Positions 44,264-61,803 of a stretch of DNA of 64,000 nucleotides are shown here, piece by piece. This DNA comes from Roseivirga echinicomitans (GTDB lineage: Bacteria > Bacteroidota > Bacteroidia > Cytophagales > Cyclobacteriaceae): positions 1-64,000 of the forward strand of contig NZ_LRDB01000023.1 of NCBI RefSeq assembly GCF_001592935.1, in the 5' to 3' direction. Position numbers and translations under genes: made by a program. Each line of letters starts with the position of its first letter. Position 1 is the first letter of the stretch. The notes beneath the pieces are model-generated. The model saw only the letters and a list, made by a program, of their open reading frames with translations. It ran no database searches and was not told where the DNA came from.

Positions 44264-45361
44264 ATGACTAATCCCCCATTACACAGACGGTTAGACAGCG
44301 ACAAAAAGCCCATCATTATCGCAGGGCCTTGTAGCATTGAAAGCCAAAGTCAATTTTTAAAAACACTGAAGGGTTTAGACCTTTCTAAAGTTGATTACAT
44401 AAGAGGTGGGATCTGGAAGCCTAGAACTCGGCCAGGTTCTTTCGAAGGCATGGGCGAAGTCGCTTTTGAATGGGTGAAGGAAGTGCAAAAGGAACTCGGT
44501 TTTAAATTTGCCACCGAAGTAGCCTCCACTGAACATGTAGACATTGCTTTAAAAAATGGCGCTGGATTATTGTGGATTGGTGCCAGAACTACTGTCAACC
44601 CTTTCAATGTGCAAGAAATTGCCGAGGCTCTTCGAGGCGTAGACCTTCCCGTTTTTGTAAAGAACCCTATTAATCCAGATTTATCACTTTGGAAAGGGGC
44701 TTTGGAAAGGCTGTTAAAATGTGATGTCAAAAACCTCGGTGCTATTCATCGTGGCTTTCAAACATTTCAGCAAAGCAAATACCGCAATACTCCGCTGTGG
44801 CAAATCCCGATGGAATTGAAAAGTGAATTCCCTGACTTGCCTCTGCTCTGCGACCCAAGCCATATTGGTGGAAAAAGAAGTCTAATTGCTGAATTGTCGC
44901 AACGGGCTATGGACTTAGACTTTGATGGTTTGATGGTTGAAACACACATCGACCCTGACAATGCGCTCAGTGATAATGCGCAACAATTAACGCCCGATGC
45001 TTTTGGTCTTCTTCTGGATAGTTTGATTTTTCGAAATCATACGTCCAAAAACGAAGACTTCAACAATCAGCTAGACATCATTCGTGAGCAAATAGATCAA
45101 GCGGACAGGGAAATACTGGAAGCCATTGCCACCCGTTTAAGCTTGGTTGAAAAGATTGGAACCTATAAAAAAGACAACAACGTGGCTATTTTTCAGATCA
45201 GTCGCTGGAAAGAGATTTTGCACTCCCGACCAGAATGGGCAAAATCTTTAAACTTAGACCCCGAATTTATTCGCGAACTTTACCGACATATTCATCAGCA
45301 ATCCGTAAGGATACAGACATCCGTATTTAATAAAGAACAAGACAAACAACCTAATGACTGA
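44264..45361 (+). CDS. Bifunctional DAHP synthase / chorismate mutase (copy 1)
   Basis: 365 residues. DAHP synthase (type I beta/KDO8PS-like) occupies ~15-265: IAGPCSIES, KPRTRPGSFEG, WIGARTTVNPF, KNPINPDL, IHRGF, CDPSHIGG and DGLMVETH are all intact. A type II AroQ chorismate mutase domain (~270-355) follows, with IIREQIDQADREIL. The protein would condense PEP and erythrose-4-phosphate, and convert chorismate to prephenate. The next gene overlaps by 8 bp. A second copy lies 740 bp downstream behind an attenuator, so this copy may be the unattenuated isoenzyme. Confidence 0.93.
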   Translation: MTNPPLHRRLDSDKKPIIIAGPCSIESQSQFLKTLKGLDLSKVDYIRGGIWKPRTRPGSFEGMGEVAFEWVKEVQKELGFKFATEVASTEHVDIALKNGAGLLWIGARTTVNPFNVQEIAEALRGVDLPVFVKNPINPDLSLWKGALERLLKCDVKNLGAIHRGFQTFQQSKYRNTPLWQIPMELKSEFPDLPLLCDPSHIGGKRSLIAELSQRAMDLDFDGLMVETHIDPDNALSDNAQQLTPDAFGLLLDSLIFRNHTSKNEDFNNQLDIIREQIDQADREILEAIATRLSLVEKIGTYKKDNNVAIFQISRWKEILHSRPEWAKSLNLDPEFIRELYRHIHQQSVRIQTSVFNKEQDKQPND

Positions 45362-45913: not shown

Positions 45914-45921
45914 TATATTTT
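45914..45921 (+). promoter_or_regulatory. Candidate -7 box for the attenuator leader
   Basis: TATATTTT, seven of eight matches to TAnnTTTG, 32 bp before the leader ATG. If used, transcription starts near 45929. Transcription might instead come from the upstream operon. Confidence 0.3.
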
Positions 45922-45952
45922 TCTTTAAAAAAGAGATACCTAAGTTTATCGC

Positions 45953-46030
45953 ATGTTAGCAGCAAGGACATCATTTTATTACTTTTTTTACTTTAGAACT
46001 CAACGAGATCGAGCCTGCGCTATCATATAA
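45953..46030 (+). CDS. Aromatic leader peptide of a transcription attenuator
   Basis: A 25-codon frame from ATG 45953 to TAA 46028-46030. Codons 8-14 read Phe-Tyr-Tyr-Phe-Phe-Tyr-Phe (TTT TAT TAC TTT TTT TAC TTT) with no other residue between them. The remaining residues are MLAARTS before and RTQRDRACAII after. This is the mark of a regulatory leader peptide: when Phe/Tyr-tRNA is short, a ribosome stalls in the run. It lies between the PDT-like gene and the second DAHP synthase, followed by antiterminator and terminator sequences. It is too short for ordinary gene callers. Translation has not been shown; the inference rests on codon content and position. Confidence 0.8.
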   Translation: MLAARTSFYYFFYFRTQRDRACAII

Positions 46031-46086
46031 ATGAAATTGTAAAAATATTTTATTAGCCCGGTTCGAAAGAGTCGGGCTTTTTTTTT
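46009..46086 (+). promoter_or_regulatory. Transcription attenuator (antiterminator/terminator switch)
   Basis: Terminator: AGCCCGGTTC (46055-46064), loop GAAA, GAGTCGGGCT (46069-46078), then eight T; the 10-bp stem contains two G-T wobbles. Antiterminator: TCGAGCCTGCGCT (46009-46021), overlapping the last codons of the leader, can pair with AGCCCGGTTCGA (46055-46066) with one G-T wobble and a small internal defect. The two folds exclude each other. A ribosome stalled at codons 8-14 leaves 46009-46021 free and lets the antiterminator form; a ribosome reaching the stop covers it and allows termination. Confidence 0.78.
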
Positions 46087-46100
46087 GACCAAACGTAATT

Positions 46101-47195
46101 ATGAACATCATCGACATTAAAGATTGGGGGCTCGGATTATCAGAGCATGTGCTCATTGCCGGCCCTTGCAGCGCAGAAAGCCCGCAGCAAATCGAAACCA
46201 TTGCAAAAGGTTTAAAGGAAAGTCCTGTTGAATTATTTAGAGCGGGTGTATGGAAACCCAGAACTAGACCCGGCTCTTTTGAAGGCGTTGGCGTGGAAGC
46301 TCTGGAGTGGCTACAAATTGCCAAAGACATTTTGGATGTACCTGTGACAGTAGAAGTAGCAAAAACAGAACATGTAGAAGCCGCACTAAAAGCTGGCGTT
46401 GATGTGCTTTGGATTGGTGCTAGAACAACGGTAAACCCATTTTCGGTACAAGAAATTTGCGAAGCCTTAAGAGGCACCGACATTCCCGTAATGGTGAAGA
46501 ACCCCATCAACCCAGACCTTCAACTTTGGTTGGGCGCTTTTGAAAGACTTAATAAAGTAGGTATAAAAAAAGTGGCCGGCATTCACCGTGGTTTTTCTGA
46601 TCCTTACGAAAAAAGATACCGCAACAAGCCAGAGTGGTCATTACCCATTCACTTAAAACGAATGATCCCCGGTCTTTCTGTAATTTGTGATCCAAGTCAT
46701 ATTTGTGGCGCACGCGAAATTATTGGAGCCGTAAGTCAAAGGGCCATTAACTTTGGTTTGGATGGTTTGATGATTGAAACTCACCACGACCCAGACAATG
46801 CCTGGAGTGATGCCAAACAGCAGATCACACCTCAAGCGCTTAAAATCATTTATGAAAGCCTGATCTTTAGAGAAAACGTAGACGAGCATCCAGAAATGCT
46901 AAATGAGCTGGATCAATTCAGACAAAAAATTGATTTACTTGATACGCAACTACTAGAGCTTTTTGCCGAAAGATTCAAAGTAATAGAGCAAGTAGGTGAC
47001 TATAAGCGCGAACATAATTTAGCCGTTTACCAGCCTAGCCGTTGGGAAGAAGTGATGGAAAGCAGAATTCAGGACGGCTTGCGTAAAAATTTGACAGAGA
47101 AGTTTATGAAAAGCCTTTTATTTGCCATTCACGAAGAGTCCGTGAAAAAGCAAGAAGCACAACTGAAAGAAACCCGTCCATTGACAAACGCATGA
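46101..47195 (+). CDS. Bifunctional DAHP synthase / chorismate mutase (copy 2)
   Basis: 364 residues with the same layout as copy 1: DAHP synthase (~18-265; AGPCSAES, KPRTRPGSFEG, WIGARTTVNPF, KNPINPDL, IHRGF, CDPSHICG) and a chorismate mutase tail (~270-350; FRQKIDLLDTQLL). All core motifs are intact. The ATG lies 15 bp after the attenuator T tract, so this gene and aroB-aroA behind it are the attenuated unit. The stop overlaps aroB by 4 bp (ATGA). Confidence 0.94.
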   Translation: MNIIDIKDWGLGLSEHVLIAGPCSAESPQQIETIAKGLKESPVELFRAGVWKPRTRPGSFEGVGVEALEWLQIAKDILDVPVTVEVAKTEHVEAALKAGVDVLWIGARTTVNPFSVQEICEALRGTDIPVMVKNPINPDLQLWLGAFERLNKVGIKKVAGIHRGFSDPYEKRYRNKPEWSLPIHLKRMIPGLSVICDPSHICGAREIIGAVSQRAINFGLDGLMIETHHDPDNAWSDAKQQITPQALKIIYESLIFRENVDEHPEMLNELDQFRQKIDLLDTQLLELFAERFKVIEQVGDYKREHNLAVYQPSRWEEVMESRIQDGLRKNLTEKFMKSLLFAIHEESVKKQEAQLKETRPLTNA

Positions 47196-48226
47196 GCCAC
47201 ATTGTAATTGACCACATAGAAACCAGCCTCAAGGCGGTATTAAAGGAAACTGACTTTACGCAACTAGCGGTTTTAGTCGATGAGAATACGCATGCGCATT
47301 GTTATCCTTTGGTACAGGCCTTTTTGCCTGAGCATTTGCTCATACAAATCACTTCGGGCGAAGAGAACAAAAATCTTCGCACTTGCGAACACATTTGGGA
47401 GCAATTCACCACAAACAACTTTGACAGAAAAGCATTGCTGATCAATTTGGGTGGTGGCGTCATTGGCGATATGGGTGGTTTCTGTGCGGTGACTTACAAA
47501 CGCGGTATTCGATTTATGAACATTCCTACTACCCTATTGGCGGCTGTAGATGCCAATGTAGGCGGGAAGTTAGGAATCGATTTTATGGGCTTTAAAAACC
47601 ATTTAGGTTTCTTCCAAGAGCCAGAAAGTGTTTTGATCGACCCTGTGTTTCTAAAAACCTTAGCGCCAAGAGAATTAAGATCGGGTTTTGCAGAAGTAAT
47701 TAAGCACGGACTGATAGCCGATACTGATTATTTTGAGCAAACCACTGCCCATGGTTTAAACATTGAAAACTGGGAAGCGGTGATTGCCCATTCGGTAGAA
47801 ATCAAAAATGAAGTAGTAAAAGCCGACCCAAAAGAAGCCGGGCTCAGGAAGATTTTAAACTTTGGGCATACCATAGGGCACGCCATTGAAAGCTTCTATT
47901 TAAATACAGACAAAAAGCTTTTGCATGGAGAGGCAATTGCGGCTGGAATGATATGTGAAGCCTACTTGTCAAAAAAACTGCTGGGTTTTTCTGATGAAAA
48001 TCTATTGCAGATTTCTGACACCATTCTCGAAATTTATCCTGAAATTAACATCGCAAAAGAGGACTTTTCTGGAATCATAAAACTGATGTACCAAGACAAA
48101 AAGAATCTCAATAACCTCCTCAACCACTCCCTTCTGATGGACATCGGAAAGGCCACCTACGATATCGCAGTAGACGAAAAAGATGTAATTGATTCTCTTT
48201 TTTACTTCACTAAACTGAAACACTGA
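47192..48226 (+). CDS. aroB: 3-dehydroquinate synthase
   Basis: 344 residues. NAD-binding and metal motifs are visible: GGGVIGDMGGFCAVTYKRG (about 89-107), PTTLLAAVDANVGGK, GFAEVIKHGLI, LNFGHTIGHAIE and HGEAIAAGM, with the zinc ligands Glu and two His in these last blocks. The enzyme converts DAHP to 3-dehydroquinate, the second step of the shikimate pathway. The start overlaps the preceding stop by 4 bp and aroA begins 2 bp downstream: a tight operon. Confidence 0.95.
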   Translation: MSHIVIDHIETSLKAVLKETDFTQLAVLVDENTHAHCYPLVQAFLPEHLLIQITSGEENKNLRTCEHIWEQFTTNNFDRKALLINLGGGVIGDMGGFCAVTYKRGIRFMNIPTTLLAAVDANVGGKLGIDFMGFKNHLGFFQEPESVLIDPVFLKTLAPRELRSGFAEVIKHGLIADTDYFEQTTAHGLNIENWEAVIAHSVEIKNEVVKADPKEAGLRKILNFGHTIGHAIESFYLNTDKKLLHGEAIAAGMICEAYLSKKLLGFSDENLLQISDTILEIYPEINIAKEDFSGIIKLMYQDKKNLNNLLNHSLLMDIGKATYDIAVDEKDVIDSLFYFTKLKH

Positions 48227-48228
48227 CC

Positions 48229-49443
48229 TTGGAAACCATTCACCTTAAACACTCACCCCAACTCAAAGCAGTAGAAATCCCGCTTCCTGCTTCTAAAAGT
48301 GAGAGCAATAGGGCTTTAATTATCAACGCGCTTTCTGGTAACCTATCAGCACTACAGAACCTATCGGAGGCCAGGGATACTCAAACGATGATTCGTTTAT
48401 TGGCCAGTTCGGAAGAAACTTTAGATGTTTTGGACGCTGGAACCACGATGCGATTTCTTACAGCACTTTCAGCCGTGGGAGAAACACCGAGGATTCTTAC
48501 TGGCACGGCAAGAATGCAACAACGTCCAATCAAGATTTTGGGTGATGCGCTTAAAAGCCTTGGTGCCAAAGTGAAATATTTAGGAGAAGAGGGTTTCCCT
48601 CCACTCAAGGTAAAGCCCATTGTTGATCAAAAGACCAACAGTATTAAAATGCAAGGCGATGTCAGCAGTCAGTTTATATCGGCTGTATTAATGATTGCCC
48701 CTTGTTTACCCCAAGGGCTTAATTTAGAGTTAAAAGGGAAAATCGGCTCTCGCCCTTATATCCAAATGACTTTGGACATGATGAGGCTTTTTGGAATTCA
48801 CTCCAACTGGACCAACCAAACCATTGAAATTAAGCCTCAGCAATACAATGATTATCCCTATGTAGTGGAGTCCGATTGGTCGGGTGCGAGCTACTGGTAT
48901 AGTTTTGTCGCTTTAGCGGATGATGCCAAAATCAAATTGAAAGGGCTCAGACAAAAGTCGCTTCAGGGCGACATTGCCATTGTGCACATGATGAATCAGC
49001 TTGGCGTGATGAGCACTTTTGAAGCCGATGGTGTGGTACTTCAGAAAATCCCTCATTCCAACGAGGTGAATTTTGACTTTAGCGATTGCCCAGATTTGGC
49101 CCAAACCATAGCCGTTGTTTGTGCGGCAAAGAAAATACAATGCACCATGACAGGTTTAGAAAGCCTTGTGATCAAAGAAACCAACAGGGTGAAAGCCCTA
49201 AAAAAGGAGCTGAAAAAATTCAAAGTCAAGTTAAAAGAAGTAGCACCAGAGGTGTTTGAACTTAGGTCTAAATTCGAATTGAGTGATACCCCCATAGAAA
49301 TCGAGACCTATGACGACCACAGAATGGCCATGGCTTTTGCTCCACTTTGTACCTTGCAGGGCATCATCATCAAAGATCCCAGTGTGGTCAATAAATCATA
49401 CCCAGGTTTTTGGAAAGACATTGAACTGGCAACAGGTCAGTAA
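48229..49443 (+). CDS. aroA: 3-phosphoshikimate 1-carboxyvinyltransferase (EPSP synthase)
   Basis: 404 residues. Substrate-binding motifs: PASKSESNRALIINALSG (N-domain Lys and Arg), DAGTTMRFL, GSRPYIQMTLDMM, DWSGASYWY and DDHRMAMAFAPL. It transfers enolpyruvate from PEP to shikimate-3-phosphate. It is slightly shorter than the 420-430 residue average. The start is a TTG at 48229; the next Met is ~53 codons inside the conserved domain, so TTG must be used. The gene begins 2 bp after aroB and closes the aromatic unit. Confidence 0.93.
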   Translation: METIHLKHSPQLKAVEIPLPASKSESNRALIINALSGNLSALQNLSEARDTQTMIRLLASSEETLDVLDAGTTMRFLTALSAVGETPRILTGTARMQQRPIKILGDALKSLGAKVKYLGEEGFPPLKVKPIVDQKTNSIKMQGDVSSQFISAVLMIAPCLPQGLNLELKGKIGSRPYIQMTLDMMRLFGIHSNWTNQTIEIKPQQYNDYPYVVESDWSGASYWYSFVALADDAKIKLKGLRQKSLQGDIAIVHMMNQLGVMSTFEADGVVLQKIPHSNEVNFDFSDCPDLAQTIAVVCAAKKIQCTMTGLESLVIKETNRVKALKKELKKFKVKLKEVAPEVFELRSKFELSDTPIEIETYDDHRMAMAFAPLCTLQGIIIKDPSVVNKSYPGFWKDIELATGQ

Positions 49444-61227: not shown

Positions 61228-61797
61228 TTATTCCCCGTCTTTCTTATCATCTTCTTTTGCTTCTTCAGCCTTTGCTTCCGGAGTCTCTTCAGTTTTAGCA
61301 GCTGGTGCTTCAACAGTTTCTTCCTTCTTCGCCTTAGGTGCTTTTGCTACAGGAGTTGATTCAGTAGTCTCATCAGATTTCTTACCTCTGCTTCTTCTGC
61401 TGCTTTTCTTAGCAGGAGCTGCTTCTTTAAGTAGTAATTCGTTGTAGTCTACTAATTCAATGATACACATATCAGCATTATCTCCTAATCTGTTTCCAGT
61501 TTTGATAATTCTAGTATATCCACCAGGTCTGTTTGCTACCTTTTCAGCGATTTCGCTAAAAAGCGCTGTTACCGTCTCTTTATTTTGAAGATAAGAGAAT
61601 ACTACTCTTCTTGAGTGAGTTGTATCTGTCTTAGCTTTTGTAATAAGAGGCTCAACATATTTCCTAAGTTCCTTTGCCTTCGCTACAGTAGTTGAAATTC
61701 TCTTGTGCGCGATCAAAGAAGAAGCCATGTTAGAAAGCATTGCTTTTCTATGCGGTGCCTTTCTACTCAGGTGATTAAATTTCTTCCCGTGTCTCAT
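61228..61797 (-). CDS. rplQ: 50S ribosomal protein L17
   Basis: 189 residues. The first ~115 match L17 ([20 protein letters not shown], then [20 protein letters not shown]). The last ~70 residues are a Lys/Glu/Ala-rich tail that is not part of the core fold; similar tails occur in Bacteroidota L17. Assembles in the large subunit near the exit tunnel. Ends the operon and lies 6 bp after rpoA. Confidence 0.96.
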
Positions 61798-61803
61798 CTT
61801 ACT

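Follow-up and report, generated by a model that had tools for sequence, protein, structure and literature searches.

The region between the prephenate dehydratase gene and a second DAHP synthase-chorismate mutase gene in the analysed DNA of Roseivirga echinicomitans (a stretch of 64,000 nucleotides, the window) is best read, with a probability of about 0.9, as a ribosome-mediated transcription attenuator sensing charged tRNA-Phe and tRNA-Tyr, whose transcript would start at or near the AUG of a leader peptide. The leader, the control codons, the pairings, the spacing and the distance between the promoter box and the ATG are conserved by comparison with related sequences. The gene order is: DAHP synthase-chorismate mutase (first paralogue, window positions 44264-45361, Pfam DAHP_synth_1 and CM_2); prephenate dehydratase (upstream of the element, start at 45354, Pfam PDT), whose stop lies about 56 nt before the leader; the attenuator element; the second DAHP synthase-chorismate mutase (46101-47195); aroB (47192-48226, with a 4-nt overlap with the preceding gene); and aroA (48229-49443). 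The last three, all on the forward strand, are the genes that the element would control, and Pfam agrees with their naming in a preliminary description made from the sequence of the window (PF00793 and PF01817; PF01761, DHQ_synthase; PF00275, EPSP_synthase). The closest named record among the matches listed is R. seohaensis (L033), with a second DAHP synthase 96% identical to that of the window. The two DAHP synthase-chorismate mutase paralogues of the window are about 51% identical and lie either side of prephenate dehydratase, the attenuator being present only at the second; no Phe/Tyr leader of this kind was seen before prephenate dehydratase or the first DAHP synthase in the window genome.

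Architecture and conservation of the element

The leader peptide ORF MLAARTSFYYFFYFRTQRDRACAII (45953-46030, forward strand, 25 codons) was read directly in the sequence from its ATG at 45953 to its TAA at 46028-46030, and codons 8-14 (45974-45994) form the uninterrupted run Phe-Tyr-Tyr-Phe-Phe-Tyr-Phe, so that the coordinates first reported for a 25-codon leader with seven consecutive Phe/Tyr codons hold. The intrinsic terminator (46055-46086, forward strand), identified in the sequence and by pair counts, comprises a 10-bp stem (46055-46078, pairs A-T, G-C, C-G, C-G, C-G, G-C, G-T, T-G, T-A and C-G), a GAAA loop (46065-46068) and eight further T (46079-46086), and all ten pairs and the T run described earlier were read again. 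The antiterminator joins strand 2 (46008-46022, forward strand), located within the last leader codons by sequence comparison, a swap test and pair counts, to strand 3 (46055-46066, forward strand), located by pair counts in the alignment, which is also the 5' arm of the terminator. The pairing between 46009-46021 and 46055-46066 that had been put forward is present save for a bulge at T46016 and a C.C mismatch at 46018/46058, and it shows paired changes in relatives. Strand 1 (45953-45978, forward strand) is a possible partner of strand 2 on the weaker evidence of duplex prediction and the swap test.

The comparison of frame and stems in close relatives, which the preliminary description had named as a check, was run on 98 upstream regions, 85 of them distinct (18 loci from the 19 genus genomes searched, and 80 loci among the matches listed). 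Leader, antiterminator and terminator were found together in 84 of the 85 distinct regions from Roseivirga and relatives among the matches listed (Roseivirga, Algoriphagus, Belliella, Echinicola, Cyclobacterium, Cecembia, Aquiflexum, Lunatimonas and Marivirga), the terminator accompanying 84/84 leaders; the idea thus survived this comparison. The sole exception, L082, comes from a MAG contig and has an unusual match of 1577 nt. The 84 leaders correspond to 83 separate loci (L043 is the same contig as L006 with a different gene start), and they include the leader of L100, a frame tie counted through the script rule. The tails of the leader peptides vary by clade (e.g. RIGAAYCLVKN, KVSRCL, RSSRCF), and L004 and L005, close relatives of the window (L003), read strand 2 in a different frame from it with the RNA preserved, which argues that the RNA is under selection besides the control codons.

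The alignment (A1), the pair counts and the search model of the element (R1) were built on 44 of the 84 leaders, chosen by k-mer distance. The terminator pairing 3:4 had 99.3% of cells paired and 18 two-sided cells, with 4 of its 10 pairs changed on both sides, and the antiterminator pairing 2:3 had 91.1% of cells paired and 29 two-sided cells, with 5 of its 12 pairs changed on both sides; in both cases 0/500 shuffles, which ignore kinship, reached either value. Among five measures taken on the whole antiterminator structure, the number of two-sided pairs and the number of pair types were matched by 46/500 shuffles, and the other three by none. The antiterminator pairs at columns 103/178 (U-A in 21 and G-C in 8 of the 44 sequences) and 104/177 (C-G in 28 and U-A in 7 of 44) use bases of the terminator loop, which are unpaired in the terminator; they change in step, with 8 two-sided cells each, and are unpaired in 15/44 and 6/44 sequences. 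In the swap test on the 44 leaders, cognate 1:2, 2:3 and 3:4 strands paired better than swapped ones (0/10000 permutations each, kinship not removed). Counted from the first base of the last aromatic codon, strand 2 begins at 13 nt in 41/84 leaders and at 12-16 nt in 75/84, a distance that fits the ribosome footprint and bears out the spacing of stall site and antiterminator suggested earlier; together with the conserved stall codons and the paired changes, it supports the original reading as ribosome-mediated attenuation.

Predicted transcript start and switching

A promoter -7 box, TAAGTTTA (45941-45948, forward strand), matches the consensus TAnnTTTG in 5 of 6 fixed letters and ends 4 nt before the leader ATG, and the predicted transcription start is 45953. 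The -33 region is weak in the window (TTTTTC, 45918-45923, forward strand): it lacks the G of the TTG that, in 48 of the 79 leaders tested, is separated from the -7 box by a 19-nt spacer, and the window promoter is also off consensus in its -7 box, which ends in A, not G. A TAnnTTTG/A box ends 4 nt before the leader start in 73/84 leaders and 5 nt before it in 6/84. A pyrimidine/purine step at -1/+1 is present in 72 of the 73 leaders with the 4-nt gap, the base before the start codon being C in 67 cases and either C or T in 72. As a control we took as genes, with presumptive starts, the 48 ORFs of 150 codons or more in the window: such a box lay 3-6 nt before a possible start within the first 30 codons in 1/48, and none lay closer than 22 nt to the first possible start of any of the 48. 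The -7 box spans -12 to -5 in Flavobacterium psychrophilum (PMC9723704), and probable promoters of F. johnsoniae have 4-5 nt between the -7 box and the start site (PMC6847099). Because the box gap matches these published distances, the predicted start is the A of the AUG, giving a leader mRNA predicted to have no 5' UTR. This is a rare arrangement: leaderless mRNAs are few in F. psychrophilum (5.5% of the mapped ones; PMC9723704), and 87% of the F. johnsoniae transcripts from probable promoters are reported with leaders longer than 10 nt (PMC6847099).

From these comparisons we infer the transcript start, translation, stalling, termination and the response to Phe and Tyr. Transcription would begin with the A of the leader's start codon, or one or two bases away from it, and from such a start it follows that the ribosome would load directly onto the exposed 5' end. 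Under a shortage of Phe or Tyr, the ribosome would stall in codons 8-14, with strand 2 beginning just beyond its leading edge, and strand 2 would pair with strand 3 before strand 4 was made; with 2:3 formed first no terminator would arise, and the polymerase would enter DAHP synthase-chorismate mutase, aroB and aroA. If both amino acids were plentiful, the ribosome would reach the stop codon and cover strand 2, 3:4 would form, and the transcript would end near 46086.

Equilibrium folding of the full leader gave a terminator probability above 0.5 in 84/84 leaders in each of three states (no ribosome, ribosome on the last aromatic codon, ribosome on the stop), and in 79/84 when the ribosome stood on the first aromatic codon. 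The terminator being favoured in nearly every equilibrium state, switching must rest on timing and not on pure thermodynamics. When strand 4 was left out as not yet made, 2:3 formed in 84, 83 and 80 of the 84 leaders with the ribosome at the first, middle and last aromatic codon, and in the window RNA its probability exceeded 0.99 for a ribosome on any of the aromatic codons and was 0.21 for one on the stop. The same shortened RNA favoured 2:3 in 76/84 leaders even without a ribosome, and strand 1 may therefore do little; 1:2 had a probability of 0.15 in the window RNA without a ribosome and exceeded 0.5 in only 8/84 leaders in that state. With the ribosome at the stop, 2:3 still formed in 54/84 leaders, made up of 48 of the 49 long forms (stop at least 32 nt past the start of strand 2) and 6 of the 35 short forms. 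Strand 2 was covered at the stop in the window species and in 29/35 short forms, and left uncovered in 48/49 long forms, in which 2:3 stays paired at the stop and the ribosome would consequently have to act in passing.

Weighing of alternative explanations

The alternative that deserves most attention, although we consider it unlikely, keeps the leader-peptide attenuator and places the beginning of the working mRNA further upstream, through read-through from prephenate dehydratase or from another promoter, so that the leader would follow a normal 5' UTR and the box close to its ATG would not be a promoter. The distance of only about 56 nt from the prephenate dehydratase stop would allow read-through, and the -33 box of the window is weak. 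A prephenate dehydratase match was found in 17/60 class genomes, the window genome included. Of the 16 others, from other families, 12 have a Phe/Tyr leader before this gene, and in 10 of these 12 the start codon and the best box are 8-32 nt apart; the zero-UTR trait is accordingly not phylum-wide for this pathway. Against an upstream start stand the box gap of 4 nt in 73/84 leaders, the TTG at its 19-nt spacer in 48/79 and the pyrimidine/purine step in 72/73, and the similarly small gaps at the trpE, hisG and phhA leaders of the genus described below.

Two further explanations dispense with the leader peptide. An RNA switch for Phe or Tyr, either a ligand-binding riboswitch or one bound by a protein, with the ORF incidental, would account for the alternative terminator/antiterminator pair, and we hold it to be very improbable: what is kept among relatives is the control codons and their spacing, other codons take their place before trpE, hisG and a class IV aminotransferase gene, and no further conserved structured domain beyond strands 1-4 was seen in the alignment. 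A known RNA family was rejected, as Rfam gave 0 matches above the gathering thresholds in the 64,000-base window. Still less credible is a plain intergenic terminator of the upstream genes next to a chance ORF, with no regulation, even though intergenic terminators are common and the terminator dominated almost all the states folded at equilibrium. This explanation was rejected on the conserved leader (84/85 regions) and the paired changes in the antiterminator, and phhA of this genome has a comparable element upstream. A chance ORF was ruled out, as seven aromatic residues within eight codons occur in only 1 of the 3427 short reading frames of the window (ATG, GTG or TTG start to stop, 8-60 codons, both strands, nested starts counted separately).

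Known systems and other leaders in the genus and the class

The phe, trp and his operons of Proteobacteria are controlled by such leaders, and the enterobacterial pheA, trp and his attenuators combine a leader rich in control codons, a stalling ribosome, mutually exclusive antiterminator and terminator, and biosynthetic genes downstream. The element in the window resembles them in the codon-rich leader, the exclusive structures and the biosynthetic genes, and stalling is proposed here; it differs in having no predicted 5' UTR, and hence no Shine-Dalgarno sequence at the leader, in lacking a strong 1:2 hairpin, in having strand 2 inside the leader ORF and in mixing Phe and Tyr in one run. Attenuation in bacteria was reportedly treated by Lopatovskaya et al. 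in 2010 (cited in PMC4833913), who may already predict attenuators in Bacteroidota. Attenuation needs a first ribosome that starts in step with RNA polymerase.

According to a 2010 paper, leader peptide systems had been shown, to the knowledge of its authors, only in Proteobacteria and Actinobacteria, and Firmicutes were added there (PMC2965389). A 2021 flavobacterial transcriptome reports strong clues for leader-peptide attenuation before amino-acid operons and a conserved 5' element before pheA (PMC9723704). These F. psychrophilum elements are from the same phylum, concern an overlapping pathway (5' elements of pheA and hisG), have the same proposed mechanism and, according to the authors, had no Rfam matches either; they differ in that their element stands before pheA and ours before the second DAHP synthase, and leaderless leaders are not described in the available part of that report (PMC9723704). 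Leader-peptide attenuation thus has a precedent as a proposal in flavobacteria, and the mechanism itself is not novel. Bacteroides thetaiotaomicron has sORFs described as reminiscent of leader peptides (PMC7366714), and mycobacterial leaderless polycysteine ORFs tune downstream genes (Canestrari et al. 2020, as reviewed in PMC9031893). The latter share with our element a leaderless (here predicted) short ORF with a run of control codons, the tuning being proposed here, and differ in phylum, amino acid and genes and in controlling downstream translation, as against a conserved T-tailed terminator here (PMC9031893). Searches of the open-licence literature turned up neither leaderless attenuators in Bacteroidota nor a phenylalanine hydroxylase gene with a Tyr leader. 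What the present comparison would add to the earlier reading is the predicted absence of a 5' UTR and the presence of several such leaders predicted in the same genome.

We lean, with moderate confidence, towards a wider reading in which amino-acid attenuation in this Bacteroidota lineage, from a phylum reported to be without Shine-Dalgarno sequences, runs largely on leaderless mRNA. The Phe/Tyr, Tyr, Trp and His leaders of Roseivirga would start about 0-4 nt from the transcript start, the 5'-terminal AUG would load the ribosome as the RNA exits and keep it in step with the polymerase without a pause hairpin, and phenylalanine hydroxylase would be a tyrosine-controlled biosynthetic enzyme. Conserved attenuators with predicted zero-length 5' UTRs offer a testable answer to the timing of ribosome and polymerase without a Shine-Dalgarno sequence. 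If true, this would give leaderless initiation in Bacteroidota a natural function, and the aro, trp, his and phenylalanine hydroxylase genes of many environmental genera would be predicted to be controlled by amino acids.

The second full-length R1 match in the window genome (G000:C5) lies before phenylalanine hydroxylase (PF00351) and has a Tyr leader, MLHSSAHHHYYYYYPNDRNGCAM, with a terminator (L143, G000:C5:63159-63331). A Tyr-rich leader was found at 17 of the 18 genus phhA loci (L194-L210), with a box gap of 5 in 16, the exception (L211) being a partial match; the phhA match was absent in 1 of the 19 genus genomes searched. As a Tyr-rich leader and a terminator precede the gene, the sequences suggest that phenylalanine-4-hydroxylase (Biopterin_H) is used for making tyrosine and is controlled by it. 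In many of these leaders His codons alternate with the Tyr codons (YYYHYYH). At trpE, a WWW leader is present in 18/18 genus loci (L155-L172), the start codon following the best -7 box by 5-8 nt; these loci are best matches that score lower than the NCBIfam cut-off, and that of the window genome is anthranilate synthase I by Pfam. At hisG, a His leader is present in 19/19 genus loci (L175-L193, L176 being His-poor), with the box 4-7 nt away, the leader of the window genome being L190 (G000:C44, near 61500-61800). No clear T-tailed terminator was seen in the hisG leader sequences inspected, which gave one weak candidate (L178). A hairpin around the leader stop recurs in the hisG leaders, together with a second GC hairpin.

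The search of 295 class genomes with R1 gave some match at E ≤ 0.01 in 63, and matches covering only the terminator end of the model, of which there were many, were left out as evidence. Inspection of 41 match sites, some of the leaders being printed by script and others read by eye in the sequence, gave a leader at 29 and none accepted at 12. The 29 leaders precede 14 pheA, 6 phhA and 3 DAHP synthase genes, with single cases at trpE, ilvB, hisG, a hisH-like gene, a gene of Cys/Met metabolism and an aminotransferase gene. Ten of these downstream genes were examined with Pfam and the rest were named from the start of the protein, save the phhA of the window genome (PF00351). For the hisH-like gene Pfam gave only GATase, and for ilvB a TPP enzyme. 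Two tandem Ile/Val/Thr leader/terminator units, MRANTIIITQIITVVKT and MLKYAVIITVVIITTRTG, lie at L232:506-770 (G000:C4), without a tight box gap, and precede a class IV aminotransferase gene (PF01063) that is probably ilvE. A scan of the 700 nt upstream of ilvB gave no convincing leader; this class IV aminotransferase gene with its tandem leaders lies further up. In another family (L137:1500-1700), a leader with Cys/Met codons, MLFQKNMFCCCMMHKCVGASSC, and a terminator precede a PLP enzyme of Cys/Met metabolism.
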